From NCBI RefSeq assembly GCF_012641515.1, contig NZ_JABAHY010000001.1, positions 248,001 to 312,000 on the forward strand: a stretch of DNA of 64,000 nt. The letters run 5' to 3'. The translations under genes and the position numbers were made by a program. This stretch comes from Nesterenkonia sedimenti (GTDB lineage: Bacteria; Actinomycetota; Actinomycetes; Actinomycetales; Micrococcaceae). Each line of letters opens with the position of its first letter. The stretch's first letter is position 1. This document shows positions 30,722 through 37,355 of the stretch, piece by piece. A model generated the notes under the pieces. That model saw only the letters and a program-made list of their open reading frames with translations. It made no database searches and was not told where the DNA came from.

Positions 30722-31123
30722 CTAGTTCTTGATGACCTTGACGAGGTCGACCACGAAGATCAGGGTCTCATTGGGACCGATGGCGGCACCGGCACCCCGC
30801 TCCCCATAGGCCAGATGCGGCGGGATCTCGAAGCGCCGGCGGGCGCCTTCCTTCATCCCGATCAGACCCTGGTCCCAGCCTTGGATGACCTGGCCGATAC
30901 CGGCGGTGAAGTCCAGTGTCTGGCCACGGTTCCAGGAAGCGTCGAACTCCTCACCTGTGGACCAGGAGACGCCGACATAGTGGCAGGAGATCTGATCGCC
31001 GGGTGCCACCTCAGGGCCGGAACCGGGGATCAGTTCCTCAATGACCAGCTCCTCCGGTGGGGTCTCACCGGGGAAGTCGATCTCTGGGCGGTTGCGGTCG
31101 TAGCTGCGCTGTCCGAATGACAT
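30722..31123 (-). CDS. FKBP-type peptidyl-prolyl isomerase
   Basis: A 133-residue cytoplasmic single-domain FKBP. The fold is clear from GPEVAPGDQISCHYVGVSW, EEFDASWNRGQTLDF, GIGQVIQGWDQGLIGMKEG, PPHLAYGERGAGAAIGPNETL and the final FVVDLVKVI strand. It has the normal length of the small FKBPs. It lies between an FKBP lipoprotein gene and pafBC, two bases from the former, within the pupylation operon, an arrangement shared by related actinobacteria. A link to pupylation is not established. Confidence 0.9.
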   Translation of the reverse strand: MSFGQRSYDRNRPEIDFPGETPPEELVIEELIPGSGPEVAPGDQISCHYVGVSWSTGEEFDASWNRGQTLDFTAGIGQVIQGWDQGLIGMKEGARRRFEIPPHLAYGERGAGAAIGPNETLIFVVDLVKVIKN

Positions 31124-31125
31124 GA

Positions 31126-32364
31126 TCAGTTGTCCTCGCTGTCTTCCTCGTCCTCTTCGGCTGCCTCATCATCCTCGGGCTCAGCCTCGCCCTCAGCGGA
31201 TTGCATGTCCTCGAGCATGGCTTCCAGGTCCTCGATGGAGGTGATGCCCATCTGCGGGGCGAACATCTCCAGCTCTGCTGGATCCATGCCCAACTCTTCG
31301 GCGATCTCCTCGAAGCGTTCACGCTCTTCCTCGGTGAGCTCCAGCTCCGGCATCTCAGGCTGTTCCGGCTGCTCAGGCTGGGCGGAGGCAACGGTGTCGG
31401 CGTCGATGGCGTGGACGATGTCGATCACGAAGATCAGTGTTCCGCCGGGTCCCTGATCGGAGGTGCCCTCCTCCTCATCGGTTGTCTCCCCATAGGCCAT
31501 ATCGGCGGGGATCACCAGCAGAACACGGTCGCCAACGTGATGGCCGGGAATGCCCTCGAGCCATCCTTCGATCACACCCTCGGAGGTGTTGAATCCGAAA
31601 GGTTCCCCGGGTTCACCCTCCTCGGTCCAGGAGCCGTCGAACTCCTCGCCGTCCTCCCAGCGCCAACCGCGGTACTGGGCGAAGACCTGGTCGCCCTCAC
31701 CGATCTCCTCACCGTCACCGGAGATCAGCACCTCGGTGCTGAGCTCCTCAGGTGCCTCGGATTCAGTGTCGTGATCGCTCAGCTCGGGGCGTTCACCGAT
31801 AGTGGAGTCGATGGCCGGCAGGTCACCGGACTGCTCCTGCTCCTCGCCGTCGGCGTAGGAGGGCCGCTGGTCTACCACCTCAATATTGAAAAGCTGGGGG
31901 GCCTGAATGCCCTGTTCCTCATCAGGGGCAAGATAGACGACGACGTCGGATCCGACAGTCACGCCATTGGAGGAGAGTGCATCACCGATGAACCGGTCGG
32001 CCTCGGACTCAGCCTCGGCCAGGGCAGGAAGGGCCAGCATGGGGATTACCGGCTCCTCGTAGCTGCTGCTCTGGAGGTTGCCGTCCTCGGGGCTGACCGC
32101 AGTGAGGTGGTAGTCGACCATCCACTCATTGTTGATCTCTTCACCGTCTCCGGTGTTGACCAGCCGCGCCGCATTCTCATCGGAGTCGATTTCGTTGCGG
32201 AAACGCACCTCGGGCGGTTCGCCCTCCTCGAGGCGATTGATCTCCACATCAGAGAGAACATCCTCGTTCTCGAAGGCTGCGGCATCGTCCTCTCCGCAGG
32301 AGGTGAGGACCAGAGCCAGGGCCGCAGTCAGAACCAGGGGTGTTTTGCGAATCTTATGCATCAT
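31126..32364 (-). CDS. FKBP-type peptidyl-prolyl isomerase lipoprotein
   Basis: A 412-residue lipoprotein: MMHKIRKTPLVL, hydrophobic stretch, lipobox LTSC with GEDD after it. Residues about 50-180 form a degenerate FKBP-like domain. Residues about 215-330 form a full FKBP domain (GDQVFAQYRGWRWEDG, GVIEGWLEGIPGHHVGD, PADMAYGE, GGTLIFVIDIVHAID). The last 80 residues are extremely acidic (ELELTEEERERFEEIAEEL, ending in Glu/Asp runs). It should act as a folding helper outside the membrane. The start overlaps the pafA stop by four bases (ATGA). Confidence 0.88.
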   Translation of the reverse strand: MMHKIRKTPLVLTAALALVLTSCGEDDAAAFENEDVLSDVEINRLEEGEPPEVRFRNEIDSDENAARLVNTGDGEEINNEWMVDYHLTAVSPEDGNLQSSSYEEPVIPMLALPALAEAESEADRFIGDALSSNGVTVGSDVVVYLAPDEEQGIQAPQLFNIEVVDQRPSYADGEEQEQSGDLPAIDSTIGERPELSDHDTESEAPEELSTEVLISGDGEEIGEGDQVFAQYRGWRWEDGEEFDGSWTEEGEPGEPFGFNTSEGVIEGWLEGIPGHHVGDRVLLVIPADMAYGETTDEEEGTSDQGPGGTLIFVIDIVHAIDADTVASAQPEQPEQPEMPELELTEEERERFEEIAEELGMDPAELEMFAPQMGITSIEDLEAMLEDMQSAEGEAEPEDDEAAEEDEEDSEDN

Positions 32365-33845
32365 GGGAACTGTACTAGGTCCTGAGTTGATTCGTCAGCT
32401 TCGAACCGGTCTGTCAGCGCCAGGGATACGCTATCGGCCTGACGCTGCTGAAGACTGCGTTCACGCAGCTGGTTGCGATCCCCCAGTTTCTCCAGCAGTG
32501 ACTCCACCCGCTCGTCGGTGGTGGCGAAGGGATCTTTGAGCATCAGGGCCTCCAGGGGCCGGTCAGTGAGCTTATGGTGCACCCAGTCCACGGTGTACTC
32601 CGCACCGAAAGCTCGGGCGGTGGAGAGGAACTCTCCGCGGATGGCTGCCCGGGTCTGCGGTGGGGTGATCATGGCCTCGGTGACCTGATCTTCAGTGAGG
32701 ATCTCCTGGGCCCGGCCGCGGCGGCGCAGCAGATAGAAGAGCCCACGCTCAGGGTGGACATCGTGATACGCCATATCGATCTGCTCCATCCGGGGATGGT
32801 CCAGTCCGATGCCGCGCTGATCTGCGATCTCCTCGATGAGGCGTTTCTTGATGGCCCAGTCGATCTCAGTGTCGATAAGACTGTGGTCGCCGGTGCGCAC
32901 AGCCTCCAAAGTGCGTTCCCAGAGCTGAAGGATCCTCTCGACATGCTCATGGTGGGCGCCGTGTTCAGCCACGAACCGTTTGGCCCGGTCCAGAAGGCCC
33001 TGCTGGATCTCCACCGCAGTGGATTCCTCACCGCCGCGGATGCGCACGGCCGCGGTGCCGGTGAGGTCGTGGCTGATATGCCGAATAGCCCCGATGGGGT
33101 TCTCCAGCTCGAAGTCTCCGATGGGAACTCCTGCTTCGATCATCCGCAGCACTAGATCGGTGGAGCCGTAGCGCAGCAGTGAGGTGGTCGAGGACATATT
33201 GGAGTCCCCGACGATCACATGCAGGCGGCGGTGGCTGGCCGCATCGGCATGGGGTTCATCGCGGGTGTTGATGATCGGCCGTGAGCGGGTGGTGGCTGAG
33301 GAGATGCCCTCCCACATATGGTCCGCCCGTTGTGAGAAGGCGAAATGGGCCGGCTGCTTCTCATCGGCAGGCACAACCCGACCGGCCCCGGCGATGATCT
33401 GACGGGTGATCAGGAAAGGCAGCAGAATCCCGGAGAGCCTGCGGAAATGAGTGGTGCGTGGGATGAGGTAGTTCTCGTGGCTGCCATAGGAGTTGCCGGC
33501 AGAGTCGACATTATTCTTCAGGAGGTAGACCTGCCCGTCGAAGCCATCCTCGGCGATACGCTTCTCGGTCCATACTGCGAGATCGTGCATGATGACCTCA
33601 CCGGCGCGGTCGGCGGCGATGAGATCCATGAGGTCAGCGCATTCGGAGGTTGCGTACTCCGGGTGAGAGCCCACATCCAGGTAGAGGCGTGCCCCATTGG
33701 GGATGAAGATATTGGAGCTTCGCCCGAAGTCGACCACGGGCCGGAAGAGATAGCGGGCCAGTTCATCCGGTGGTAGGCCGCGGCCGCTGGCCGGGCGGTG
33801 CAGGGCGGCGAATTCAGTCTCGACGCCGAAGACGCGGCGGTCCAC
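32361..33845 (-). CDS. pafA: Pup-protein ligase PafA
   Basis: A 494-residue ligase that uses ATP to join the C-terminal glutamate of Pup to lysines of target proteins. The start region RRVFGVETEFAAL carries the family ATP/metal glutamate, and SSNIFIPNGARLYLDVGSHPE (read as SSNIFIPNGARLYL and DVGSHPEYAT) the DxGxHPE loop. Later blocks are LLKNNVDSAGNSYGSHENY, RADHMWEG and IINTRDEPHAD. It is of the glutamine-synthetase/gamma-glutamyl-cysteine-ligase fold. The GTG start lies three bases after the pup stop codon, so the proteasome subunit genes that usually separate pup and pafA are missing. Confidence 0.95.
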   Translation of the reverse strand: MDRRVFGVETEFAALHRPASGRGLPPDELARYLFRPVVDFGRSSNIFIPNGARLYLDVGSHPEYATSECADLMDLIAADRAGEVIMHDLAVWTEKRIAEDGFDGQVYLLKNNVDSAGNSYGSHENYLIPRTTHFRRLSGILLPFLITRQIIAGAGRVVPADEKQPAHFAFSQRADHMWEGISSATTRSRPIINTRDEPHADAASHRRLHVIVGDSNMSSTTSLLRYGSTDLVLRMIEAGVPIGDFELENPIGAIRHISHDLTGTAAVRIRGGEESTAVEIQQGLLDRAKRFVAEHGAHHEHVERILQLWERTLEAVRTGDHSLIDTEIDWAIKKRLIEEIADQRGIGLDHPRMEQIDMAYHDVHPERGLFYLLRRRGRAQEILTEDQVTEAMITPPQTRAAIRGEFLSTARAFGAEYTVDWVHHKLTDRPLEALMLKDPFATTDERVESLLEKLGDRNQLRERSLQQRQADSVSLALTDRFEADESTQDLVQFP

Positions 33846-33848
33846 GCT

Positions 33849-34052
33849 CTACTGGCCGCCCTTCTGCACGAACCCTTTGACGAACTCCTCGGCATTGGCC
33901 TCCAGGACGGTGTCGATCTCGTCCAGGATGCTGTCCAGCTCCTCGGCACGCTCGGTGGCCTGGGGATTGGCCTTCAGCTGTGCGGCGGACTCAGTGCCGG
34001 TCTCCTCTTCCCCACCGGGCCGCTGGGGCTGCTTCTGCGGCTGGGCTGCCAT
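33849..34052 (-). CDS. pup: Prokaryotic ubiquitin-like protein Pup
   Basis: A 67-residue disordered, acidic protein. The C-terminal half has EELDSILDEIDTVLEANAEE followed by FVKGFVQKGGQ, the ARC- and PafA/Dop-binding helix and the Gly-Gly-Gln end. The terminal glutamine must be deamidated by Dop before PafA can use it, so Dop is required. The N-terminal half (QPQKQPQRPGGEEETG) is the unfoldase engagement tail. Position between dop and pafA is canonical, but prcB/prcA do not follow. Confidence 0.96.
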   Translation of the reverse strand: MAAQPQKQPQRPGGEEETGTESAAQLKANPQATERAEELDSILDEIDTVLEANAEEFVKGFVQKGGQ

Positions 34053-34083
34053 ATCGTCTCCTTTATCGGTATACAGGTAGAGC

Positions 34084-35778
34084 CTACTGGTGACCTGCGG
34101 GGTTCTGCTCCAACAGCTGCTGCAGACCCTGGACCATCGCCGGGGTATCTGCGGCCGTGCGCAGTACGGGTTCGGTCTCCGTGCGCGCTCCGGTGAAGGG
34201 ATTCGACAGCTGCAGCCGAACAGGAGCGGCCGCAGGATCCGGACGCAGCAGAATCTGGTCCCAGGATGCCCCAGCGATAGCCTGACTGTGCTCGGTGATC
34301 AGCGTCCCGCGCAGCCAGGCCCGGGTCTCCTCAGGCGGATGCTGGGCGGCCCAGTTGATCTGTTCATCGGTGAACAGCCGGCGCATCCGTCCGGCCCGGG
34401 CCAGCTTGTAGTAGAGACCCTTCTCCGGGCGCAGGTCATGGTACTGAAGGTCGATCATCCCCAGGGTTGCTGAGTCCCAGTCCAACCCGTCACGGCGCCG
34501 ATAGGACTCCAGCAGCTGAAGCTTGGCCAGCCAATCCACGCGATCGGCTGCTCGGGAGGGCTCCTCTGCGAGGTCGGTGAGCAGTTCCTCCCAGGCTTCG
34601 AGCACCTCGGCGGTCTCAGTGTCCGGGGCGGTATCCGGCAGCCCCGGTGTGCTGGCGCTGCGGGCATGTTCCAGAGCGGCGATGAGGTACTCGCGCTGGA
34701 TCTCCACAGCGGACATAGGGCCCCGGTTGGTGGGGACCTTCACGGTGAGACTGGGGTCATGGGAGATCACCTTGAGCGCCTGCACGGGGTCGATCAGGCG
34801 GATATCGGGGGCTTTGCCATGCTCGATGAGATCAAGCACCAGAGCAGTGGTGCCCACCCGGATCCAGGCGGAGTACTCGCTCATATTGGCATCGCCGATG
34901 ATCACATGCAGACGGCGCCAGGAGTCATAGTGGGCGTGGGGTTCATCTCGGGTGTTGATGATCGGCCGGCGAACTGTGGTCTCGAGTCCGACCTGTTCCT
35001 CGAAGAAATCCGCCCGCTGGGAGATCTGGTAACCGGGGGTCTGGGCCTGCTGCCCAATGCCGACCCGGCCCGCTCCACTGGTGATCTGCCGAGTGACGAA
35101 GAATGGGATCAGCCCATTGATGAGGTTGTCGAAGGGAATCCGCCGTGGAACGAGGTAGTTCTCATGGGCGCCATAGGAGACCGATTTATTGTCTGTGTTG
35201 TTCTTATACAGCAGGATCTCCGGGGAGCCGGGTTCGGCCGATAGCCGGCTTGCTGCAGTACGGGCGACGACGTCGCCGGCCACATCGTAGAGCACAGCCC
35301 GTTTGGCTCCGATGGTCTCCGGTGCGGAGTATTCGGGGTGGGCGTGATCCACATAGAACCGTGCCCCATTGCCGAGCACCAGGTTCATCAGCAGCTGCGG
35401 CTGCCCCTCTTGGAGCTCGAAGAAGTCACCGCGCCAATGCGCTGAGCCCGGTGGGGTGAATTCCCGCTCTGCGGAGTCGGCAGGGGTGGGATCGCCTCCG
35501 GAGACATTGCCCAGGGCATCGACCAGGGCTTCGGGGGTGTCGGTGAGCTGGCTGGGGTGGGCTGCCGAGCGGGGCAGGACCCAGCCGCGGGCGTCCACCA
35601 GGGGTGATTCCGACTGGTAGTCCCATTCGGTGCCGGCCACCGCTCCCCCGGCCTCGGTGACCTGGGCGGCATAGGCGTTGATCAGTTCGATGCTCAGGGC
35701 CACATGGCTGGCCCGCGGATTGGCGGGGGCATGGATTCCGTATTCGGTTTCCAACCCGATCAGCCGACGAACGCTCAC
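34084..35778 (-). CDS. dop: Deamidase/depupylase Dop
   Basis: A 564-residue member of the PafA/Dop family. It deamidates the Pup C-terminal glutamine and also removes Pup from substrates. It is recognised by the start SVRRLIGLETEYGIHAPA, FYVDHAHPEYSAPET (with the catalytic-loop Asp/His), LYKNNTDNKSVSYGAHENY and IINTRDEPHAHY. Residues about 60-90 (VDARGWVLPRSAAHPSQLTD) include the longer Dop-specific loop region. It overlaps ARC by four bases and lies 31 bases before pup. The Asp in YVDHAHPE corresponds to the position important for Dop activity in family alignments; this is inferred by motif only. Confidence 0.95.
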   Translation of the reverse strand: MSVRRLIGLETEYGIHAPANPRASHVALSIELINAYAAQVTEAGGAVAGTEWDYQSESPLVDARGWVLPRSAAHPSQLTDTPEALVDALGNVSGGDPTPADSAEREFTPPGSAHWRGDFFELQEGQPQLLMNLVLGNGARFYVDHAHPEYSAPETIGAKRAVLYDVAGDVVARTAASRLSAEPGSPEILLYKNNTDNKSVSYGAHENYLVPRRIPFDNLINGLIPFFVTRQITSGAGRVGIGQQAQTPGYQISQRADFFEEQVGLETTVRRPIINTRDEPHAHYDSWRRLHVIIGDANMSEYSAWIRVGTTALVLDLIEHGKAPDIRLIDPVQALKVISHDPSLTVKVPTNRGPMSAVEIQREYLIAALEHARSASTPGLPDTAPDTETAEVLEAWEELLTDLAEEPSRAADRVDWLAKLQLLESYRRRDGLDWDSATLGMIDLQYHDLRPEKGLYYKLARAGRMRRLFTDEQINWAAQHPPEETRAWLRGTLITEHSQAIAGASWDQILLRPDPAAAPVRLQLSNPFTGARTETEPVLRTAADTPAMVQGLQQLLEQNPAGHQ

Positions 35779-37355
35779 GGCTGACCACTTCCTCCCGGAT
35801 TGGGAGCGCCGGCCCCGGTGAACTCTCGCAGTCCCAGTCCGGCCACCATGGCCCGCTGTTCTGCCAGTTCATCGGCGATGGCGGCTTCCAACTGCTCAGC
35901 GGTGATGCCCTTGGCCTCATCGTCCTGATCTGCAGCGAGGAAGTCCTTGATCGCAGTCTTCTTCGCCCGGTCGATGATATTGCTGAGCACCGCACCGGAC
36001 ATGAATCCGGCATGCTCGGGGTAGAGCTGAGCGACGACCTGGTCGATCAGTGCCTCACGGGCGGCCTCGCGGCTGCCATGGGCCTCGACAGTTGCCGGGC
36101 GCAGGGGCACCGATTCTGAGAGATGGATTCGCAGAATCTCACGGGCGCCCTCGGCGGAGGGGCGCTGGACCCGGATCTTCACATCCAGCCGGCCGGGCCG
36201 CAGGATCGCAGGATCGATCATGTCCTCACGGTTGGAGGCACCGATGACGATCACATTGTCCAGGGACTCCACACCGTCGATCTCGGCCAGCAGCTGAGGC
36301 ACGATAGTGGTCTCCACATCGGAGGAGACACCGGTGCCGCGGGTGCGGAAGAGGGCCTCCATCTCATCGAAGAACACCACGACCGGTGAGCCCTCGGAAG
36401 CCCGCTCACGGGCACGGGAGAAGATCACCCGGATATGACGTTCGGTCTCGCCGACGTATTTGTTCAGCAGCTCCGGGCCCTTGATGTTCAAGAAGAAAGC
36501 CCCGGACCCCGCGTCGTCGGAGAGCGAGGAGGCCACGGCCTTGGCGATCATGGTCTTACCGCAGCCGGGCGGACCGTAGAGCAGGATGCCCTTAGGCGCA
36601 GCCAGGCCGTGCTCGCGGTAGAGGCCCGCGTGCAGGAAGGGCAGTTCCACAGCGTCTCGGATCTGTTCGATCTGCCCGTCGAGCCCGCCGATATCGGAGT
36701 AGGAGACATCGGGGGTCTCTTCCAGGACCACGTCCTCGACCTCGGAGAGTGGGACGACCTCAGTGGCGGTACCGGTGCGCAGATCCACGACGACGGCATC
36801 GCCTACGCGGACTGCGTCCTCCTCGGTGGCGGTGAGTTTGACCACGCGTTCTTCCTCACCGCGGGCGATGATGACCAGACGGCCATCAGGGAGGACCTCT
36901 TTGACCCGGGCGATCTCCCCGGTCCCCTCTGGGGGCAGTACCGCGATGATGGTGTAGTTCTCATTGAGCAGAACCTCGGAGCCGGCGGCCAGCTCATCGG
37001 GTTCGATCAGTGGGGAGACGGAGACCCGCATCTTTCGGCCCGAATGCAGCACATCGCAGCCGGCGGCGGTGGCAGCTTCAATCTCCCTGCCCTCGGCAGG
37101 TTCGTGCCCCGGCCGGTAGCCGATCACCGAGGCGAAGGTGAATGGCGGCTGGCCATCGGCCTCCAGTGCCTCTTTGAGCTGTTCGATCTGCCCCCGGGTG
37201 GCTTCCAGAAGCCCTTTCATCCGGTCGTTATGGCGGCCGGCGGCCTGCAGCTTCTGCTCCAGGTCGCGGTGGCGGGCCCGGAGGTTGTCGATCTGTCGGT
37301 GGGCCTGGTCCAGCCGGTTCTGCAGCTGGGCGGTCTCCTGCTCCGTCTCAGTCAT
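35775..37355 (-). CDS. arc: AAA ATPase ARC (Mpa-type ring unfoldase)
   Basis: A 526-residue hexameric unfoldase that recognises Pup by its N-terminal coiled coil (TAQLQNRLDQAHRQIDNLRA, residues about 8-60). Two OB folds follow, then the AAA domain with Walker A GPPGCGKT, Walker B VVVFFDEMEAL and sensor GASNRED. ATG 37355 is chosen over an upstream ATG (37400) because the coiled coil then starts directly; it overlaps the trmI end by eight bases. The C-terminus reads LREFTGAGAPNPGGSGQP. The final tyrosine-containing tail (QYLA in Mpa) that opens the 20S proteasome gate is absent, which agrees with the missing prcBA genes. Confidence 0.93.
   Translation of the reverse strand: MTETEQETAQLQNRLDQAHRQIDNLRARHRDLEQKLQAAGRHNDRMKGLLEATRGQIEQLKEALEADGQPPFTFASVIGYRPGHEPAEGREIEAATAAGCDVLHSGRKMRVSVSPLIEPDELAAGSEVLLNENYTIIAVLPPEGTGEIARVKEVLPDGRLVIIARGEEERVVKLTATEEDAVRVGDAVVVDLRTGTATEVVPLSEVEDVVLEETPDVSYSDIGGLDGQIEQIRDAVELPFLHAGLYREHGLAAPKGILLYGPPGCGKTMIAKAVASSLSDDAGSGAFFLNIKGPELLNKYVGETERHIRVIFSRARERASEGSPVVVFFDEMEALFRTRGTGVSSDVETTIVPQLLAEIDGVESLDNVIVIGASNREDMIDPAILRPGRLDVKIRVQRPSAEGAREILRIHLSESVPLRPATVEAHGSREAAREALIDQVVAQLYPEHAGFMSGAVLSNIIDRAKKTAIKDFLAADQDDEAKGITAEQLEAAIADELAEQRAMVAGLGLREFTGAGAPNPGGSGQP

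Follow-up and report, generated by a model that had tools for sequence, protein, structure and literature searches.

Pupylation without a proteasome in Nesterenkonia sedimenti: a complete tagging locus with a reduced ARC ATPase

The window analysed here is a stretch of 64,000 nucleotides from Nesterenkonia sedimenti (family Micrococcaceae, contig NZ_JABAHY010000001.1), and it carries a minus-strand pupylation locus that encodes the protein tag Pup, the Pup ligase PafA, the depupylase/deamidase Dop and the Pup-guided unfoldase ARC, a homologue of mycobacterial Mpa. The order of transcription is TrmI-like tRNA methyltransferase, ARC, Dop, Pup, PafA, a lipoprotein-type FKBP, a further FKBP and a fused PafBC. 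The source genome (G000) is a 3.11 Mb draft in 64 contigs, 99.72% complete. The features of the locus, in window coordinates, are as follows.

35775..37355, minus strand: ARC (Mpa homologue, Pup-guided AAA unfoldase, 526 residues); TIGR03689, OB and AAA domains in Pfam
36009..36014, minus strand: site within ARC, flanked by residues 448 and 449, that lacks the β16–17 hairpin insert of relatives; phmmer against Mpa, family alignment
35778..35852, minus strand: ARC residues 502–526, a short tail ending GAPNPGGSGQP in place of strand β18 and GQYL
34084..35778, minus strand: Dop, depupylase/deamidase; TIGR03688
33849..34052, minus strand: Pup, 67 residues, ending GGQ; PF05639 and TIGR03687
33846..33848, minus strand: 3-base gap between pup stop and pafA start, the site of prcB–prcA in relatives; sequence and junction distances in 112 loci
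32361..33845, minus strand: PafA, Pup ligase, extended at the C-terminus by about 40 residues; TIGR03686
31126..32364, minus strand: FKBP, secreted or lipoprotein-type, a candidate pupylation link only; PF00254, 57.7 bits
30722..31123, minus strand: FKBP-type prolyl isomerase, a candidate pupylation link only; PF00254, 103.7 bits
28770..30716, minus strand: fused PafBC (PF13280 in two WYL stretches; PafC helix-turn-helix domain PF19187, 33 bits against 32), outside the part covered by an earlier sequence-only reading

The four pupylation proteins all score above the curated NCBIfam cut-offs: ARC reaches 627.2 bits against TIGR03689 (cut-off 504.75; model positions 3–486 of 512 covered), Dop 584.3 bits against TIGR03688 (492.3), PafA 655.6 bits against TIGR03686 (551.3) and Pup 73 bits against TIGR03687 (41.45), as well as 76.2 bits against PF05639 (27), with its C-terminal GG[QE] present. 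ARC contains the Pfam domains PF17758, PF16450 and PF00004 together with the pore-loop and Walker patterns. Dop carries NGARFYVDHAHPE and PafA carries NGARLYLDVGSHPE, motifs of the conserved catalytic region with an aspartate that we take to have an enzymatic role. PafA is 69–81% identical to the PafA of the top-listed named Nesterenkonia and Garicola records; its model match stops at residue 454 of 494, and the roughly 40 residues past the family model are common to several Nesterenkonia. Genome-wide, one Pup match, two Pup-ligase-fold genes and one ARC (E ≤ 1e-60) were detected. The sequence-only reading had named this gene set, with Pup ending in GGQ, and had placed the start of pafA 3 bases after the pup stop; both are borne out, the start codon being GTG. 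Between pafA and pafBC lie the two FKBP prolyl isomerases (30722–32364), which are also adjacent in L012 and L035.

The full pupylation machinery is thus kept while the proteasome is gone. The whole-genome search for prcA and prcB that the earlier reading had proposed returned no PF00227 match, and PF00227 was likewise missing from the sampled congeners (0/15), several of which are assemblies of 1–2 contigs. In the family sample, 135 of 245 genomes (19 of 32 genera) have a PF00227 match and 110 have none, while PF03136 (PafA/Dop) occurs in 244, the one miss being 82% complete. From these genomes 113 loci, hand-chosen to span the 32 genera, were fetched: 67 from the 110 PF00227-negative genomes and 46 from the 135 positive ones. 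The distance between pup and pafA is 1483–1689 bases in 45/45 measured loci with prcBA (L197, with no pafA in its stretch, was left out) versus −4 to 272 bases, median 5, in the 67 loci without; prcB–prcA do therefore occupy the pup–pafA gap in relatives, as had been claimed. The Bpa family (PF10759), on genome lists matched by hand, is present in 119 of the 135 PF00227-positive genomes, once as a fragment of 41 positions, and in 1 of the 110 negative ones; neither this genome nor the sampled congeners gave a PF10759 match. Sixteen of the 135 PF00227-positive genomes lack PF10759, 11 of them outside the genera g2 and g21 considered below, which contrasts with a review statement that Bpa occurs in every 20S-bearing actinobacterium.

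ARC ends in GAPNPGGSGQP and lacks the C-terminal GQYL of 20S-docking ATPases. The earlier reading had correctly noted this end and the missing penultimate-tyrosine tail but had understated the change, overlooking that the β-grasp sheet is gone as well. In phmmer the alignment of ARC with Mpa passes directly from Mpa residue 489 to residue 512 and stops near residue 559 of the 609 in Mpa. What ARC lacks is the β16–17 hairpin, an insert of the helical subdomain, and strand β18 with GQYL. This hairpin, strand β18 and one helix make up the β-grasp domain, the hairpin contacting the 20S (PMC9599533), and species without a 20S do not conserve the contacting hairpin, as stated in a passage of PMC8755798. 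Among 39 Nesterenkonia/Garicola ARC rows, 12 were set aside (1 with no ARC in a short contig, 1 with a cut ARC, 10 with duplicate C-termini); in the 27 distinct ARCs left, both β-grasp parts are gone in 14, both are kept in 13 and in none is a single part kept, with at least 3 changes of state on the tree. The two parts are distant in sequence but belong to a single sheet, so we infer that a fold unit was removed when both were lost. The C-termini of the same 27 rows vary freely in length and sequence. The record of L032 (Nesterenkonia sp. PF2B19) has a cut ARC frame and a short Dop, reflecting either an error or real damage.

The predicted ARC model is of moderate quality (mean predicted local distance difference test score, pLDDT, 74.1; predicted template modelling score 0.48) and has a helix at residues 2–68, OB strands and an AAA core; beyond residue 395 it contains no strand, and its end is disordered (pLDDT < 50 at residues 508–526). 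As in Mycobacterium tuberculosis Mpa, the core is matched, the best 30 matches of a structure search with the model being all Mpa chains; unlike in the Mpa–20S pair, there is no GQYL, β-grasp sheet, 20S or Bpa match here. A pattern search of this genome for a GQYL-ended replacement found an exact GQYL before a stop codon twice, at the ends of frames just 30 and 6 residues long; of the strings with a final F or a following TGG, a part was fetched. In the control genome G004 the pattern hits exactly the ARC and Bpa ends, and the reversed pattern gives counts of similar order. Nor is there a second ARC with a tyrosine tail, ARC being single at the above threshold. With no 20S, no docking tail on ARC and no second ARC or long GQYL frame, it is very unlikely that pupylated proteins are routed to a 20S here, and the earlier claim of non-delivery stands.

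How tightly tail and 20S go together was examined across the fetched loci. ARC ends in GQYL in 42 of 46 prcBA loci and in 1 of 67 loci without prcBA. The GQYL-less ARCs beside prcBA are those of L159 (g2) and L179, L180 and L181 (g21); L128 (G008) has no prcBA yet its ARC keeps GQYL, as does a degenerate 139-residue Bpa frame. In L044 (Haematomicrobium sanguinis), with a 272-base pup–pafA junction, the GQYL tail is kept as in L128. L128/L238 (G008) and L044, with GQYL on ARC and a shortened, degenerate Bpa but no 20S, look like a recent loss caught midway. In other families, L048, L081 and L091 combine a short junction with a partly degraded ARC terminus (TSPYL, NPYV, GTYL), which hints at a more recent loss of the 20S there. 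From the prcBA loci lacking GQYL and from L128 it follows that both orders of loss occur, and the treatment of the missing genes and the missing tail as two independent signs is not supported as it was put. A statistical proof that the two change together was not obtained either: of 6 independent pairs on the tree with contrasting prcBA status, 3 show the tail changing the same way, 0 the opposite way and 3 no tail difference (p 0.25). The GQYL tail alone is therefore unfit to predict the presence of a proteasome in a genome.

A 129-row tree built from the ARC core, Dop and PafA places g2 and g21 inside a 59-row GQYL-less clade that includes Nesterenkonia. A mixture-model tree (46 rows) groups Nesterenkonia, g2/g21, g4, g14 and g16 in a 13-row clade with support 100, nested in an 18-row GQYL-less clade with support 96. 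Loss-only parsimony on 114 family rows gives 5 losses of GQYL and 11 of prcBA, and by it the ARC tail was likely lost before prcBA in the Nesterenkonia lineage.

The proteasomes of g2 and g21 keep the catalytic and docking residues checked. In L159, L179, L180 and L181 the equivalents of PrcB Thr1, Asp17 and Lys33 and of PrcA Lys52 and Arg26 are kept, in what we take to be the standard numbering. The ratio of nonsynonymous to synonymous substitution rates (dN/dS), obtained by a simple counting method with an often high dS, is 0.05–0.12 for PrcB/PrcA in three g21 pairs versus 0.05–0.18 in 8 pairs of other genera. In a passage of the 2019 review PMC6466877, the conserved Lys and Arg are given an activator-pocket role. 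Contamination estimates reach 4–7% in three of the five g2/g21 genomes; prcBA still lies between the genus's own pup and pafA. Bpa gave no PF10759 match in G001, G093, G110, G155 and G167. Other candidate activators were rejected: the prcBA-bearing g2/g21 genomes hold three exact GQYL strings, in frames of 17, 9 and 128 residues, the last in one genome only; across 9 genomes there is no second ARC at E ≤ 1e-60 and none has a Cdc48-like activator (Cpa) above the CDC48 cut-off (0/9). The match on G000:C56 is FtsH, and a third match in G001 and G093, which G110 and G155 lack at that threshold, is a GNAT-AAA fusion. A 20S that keeps these residues beside a GQYL-less ARC, in genomes where Bpa goes unmatched, may be opened by a novel activator or through a different docking mode. 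Tentatively, then, ARC may have become detached from a working 20S in an ancestor of Nesterenkonia and several sister genera; the 20S would later have been dropped several times, including in Nesterenkonia, while g2 and g21 would keep a selected 20S opened by one of these two means. A related precedent is Propionibacterium acnes, described in part of PMC4254994 as having prcBA with ARC and Bpa both absent.

For Nesterenkonia itself, we consider that ARC probably works as a stand-alone Pup-guided unfoldase, with Dop recycling the tag. PafA would attach Pup to lysines after Dop has deamidated Pup-GGQ; the N-terminal coiled coil of ARC would bind Pup and the tagged protein would be pulled through the pore; ARC would then let the substrate go on the far side, because it has no part left to dock a 20S, and Dop would later strip Pup off again, closing the cycle. 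In evolutionary terms, the most likely course is a single loss of GQYL in a common ancestor with related genera, followed by several losses of prcBA, while the idle β-grasp sheet would have been removed within Nesterenkonia. The motor motifs are conserved: family ARCs without prcBA retain the pore loop and Walker B in 68/68, Walker A in 68/68 and RPG..D in 67/68. ARC matches are found in all 113 fetched loci, and ARC dN/dS is 0.04–0.21 across 6 Nesterenkonia pairs. Strict motif patterns failed on 7/68 Dops and 9/68 PafAs without prcBA, whereas those of the window match; in the one pattern-missed example of each that was inspected, the Asp is kept (L110, with N to D before the Asp; L097, NASRLYLD). 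Pup ends in GGQ in 46/46 prcBA loci. It ends in GGE, which requires no deamidation, in 7 of 15 sampled congener loci (L099–L104 and other g1 loci), all with a Dop match, and in 1 g3 locus. The keeping of Dop beside Pup-GGE fits a depupylation role.

Several points weigh against this account. ARC dN/dS is 0.17–0.21 in 5 of the 6 Nesterenkonia pairs, versus 0.05–0.09 in 8 pairs whose genera have both prcBA and GQYL, which suggests that constraint is partly relaxed. The sole PF00210 match in the genome is Dps-like, with a best NCBIfam score of 107.7 bits, below the cut-off of 114. A ferritin substrate by analogy with Corynebacterium glutamicum is therefore not evident, and the model worked out there is not simply transferable. 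The order of loss, in turn, depends on loss-only parsimony, and two genera may instead have regained prcBA by transfer.

Such a regain would reverse the history of g2 and g21, with prcBA lost early and later re-acquired, so that tail loss would not precede 20S loss. It would agree with the very long branch (1.42 plus 1.46) on which their PrcBA forms one clade, without a firm placement within the family, and with g21 PrcB identities of up to 57% in other families. We nevertheless find it rather unlikely: the split between the family and 17 outgroup rows has support 98 with g2/g21 on the family side, the vertical-descent clade is not rejected (approximately unbiased test, p 0.744; likelihood 9.48 higher), g21 PrcB scores highest, among 296 class genomes, against two family members, and prcBA occupies its ancestral position, with pup and pafA on either side.

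A hand-over of substrates from ARC to another chambered protease such as ClpP, Lon or FtsH, which would leave pupylation degradative, is improbable. FtsH is encoded in the genome and, with the 20S docking parts gone, a new docking surface is conceivable, but the free variation of the 27 Nesterenkonia C-termini, without a conserved replacement tail, argues against a new docking motif there. It is also quite improbable that pupylation serves as a reversible mark in its own right with ARC on its way out; the raised dN/dS and shortened C-terminus would agree with such decay, but the ratios are well under 1, an ARC match is present in every fetched locus and, apart from the single RPG..D miss, the motor motifs are found in all sampled prcBA-less family ARCs. 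That the 20S genes lie in an assembly gap of this draft is extremely improbable, given the contiguous pup–pafA junction, the 99.72% completeness and the missing PF00227 in 15/15 congeners, 1–2 contig assemblies among them.

An ARC acting on its own thus remains our preferred reading, and it has partial parallels. The corynebacterial precedent invoked by the sequence-only reading is a known one but not the sole one: PMC6466877 states that about half of sequenced actinobacteria have lost the 20S genes and kept pupylation, and PMC8223512 names C. glutamicum and Micrococcus luteus (the latter in its Fig. 2 legend) and describes the ferritin case. As in C. glutamicum, Pup, PafA, Dop and ARC are kept and prcBA is absent (PMC8223512, PMC12288473, in the passages concerned). 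Unlike here, where hairpin and strand β18 are gone, the Mpa/ARC of that species is reported in part of PMC8755798 to retain the equivalent hairpin stretch with altered residues, IDGSV; and while ARC releases ferritin there, the Dps-like protein is the only ferritin-like match here. M. luteus, of the same family, has likewise lost prcBA (PMC8223512), in a passage that does not describe its ARC C-terminus. We found no literature on pupylation in Nesterenkonia, and none on point by title for Micrococcales. Pupylation without a proteasome is thus known; the larger reduction of ARC and the likely tail-first history were not found in the openly available literature text covered.

Pupylation without a proteasome is recurrent, and the parts of the literature covered explain what it is for in the case of a single protein from a single species. 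Judged from its sequence, an ARC without the whole 20S-facing β-grasp sheet may represent a natural minimal Pup unfoldase and would make a clean test object, and the tail-first order, together with two genera that have a 20S but neither GQYL activator, offers a testable case for a new bacterial proteasome activator.

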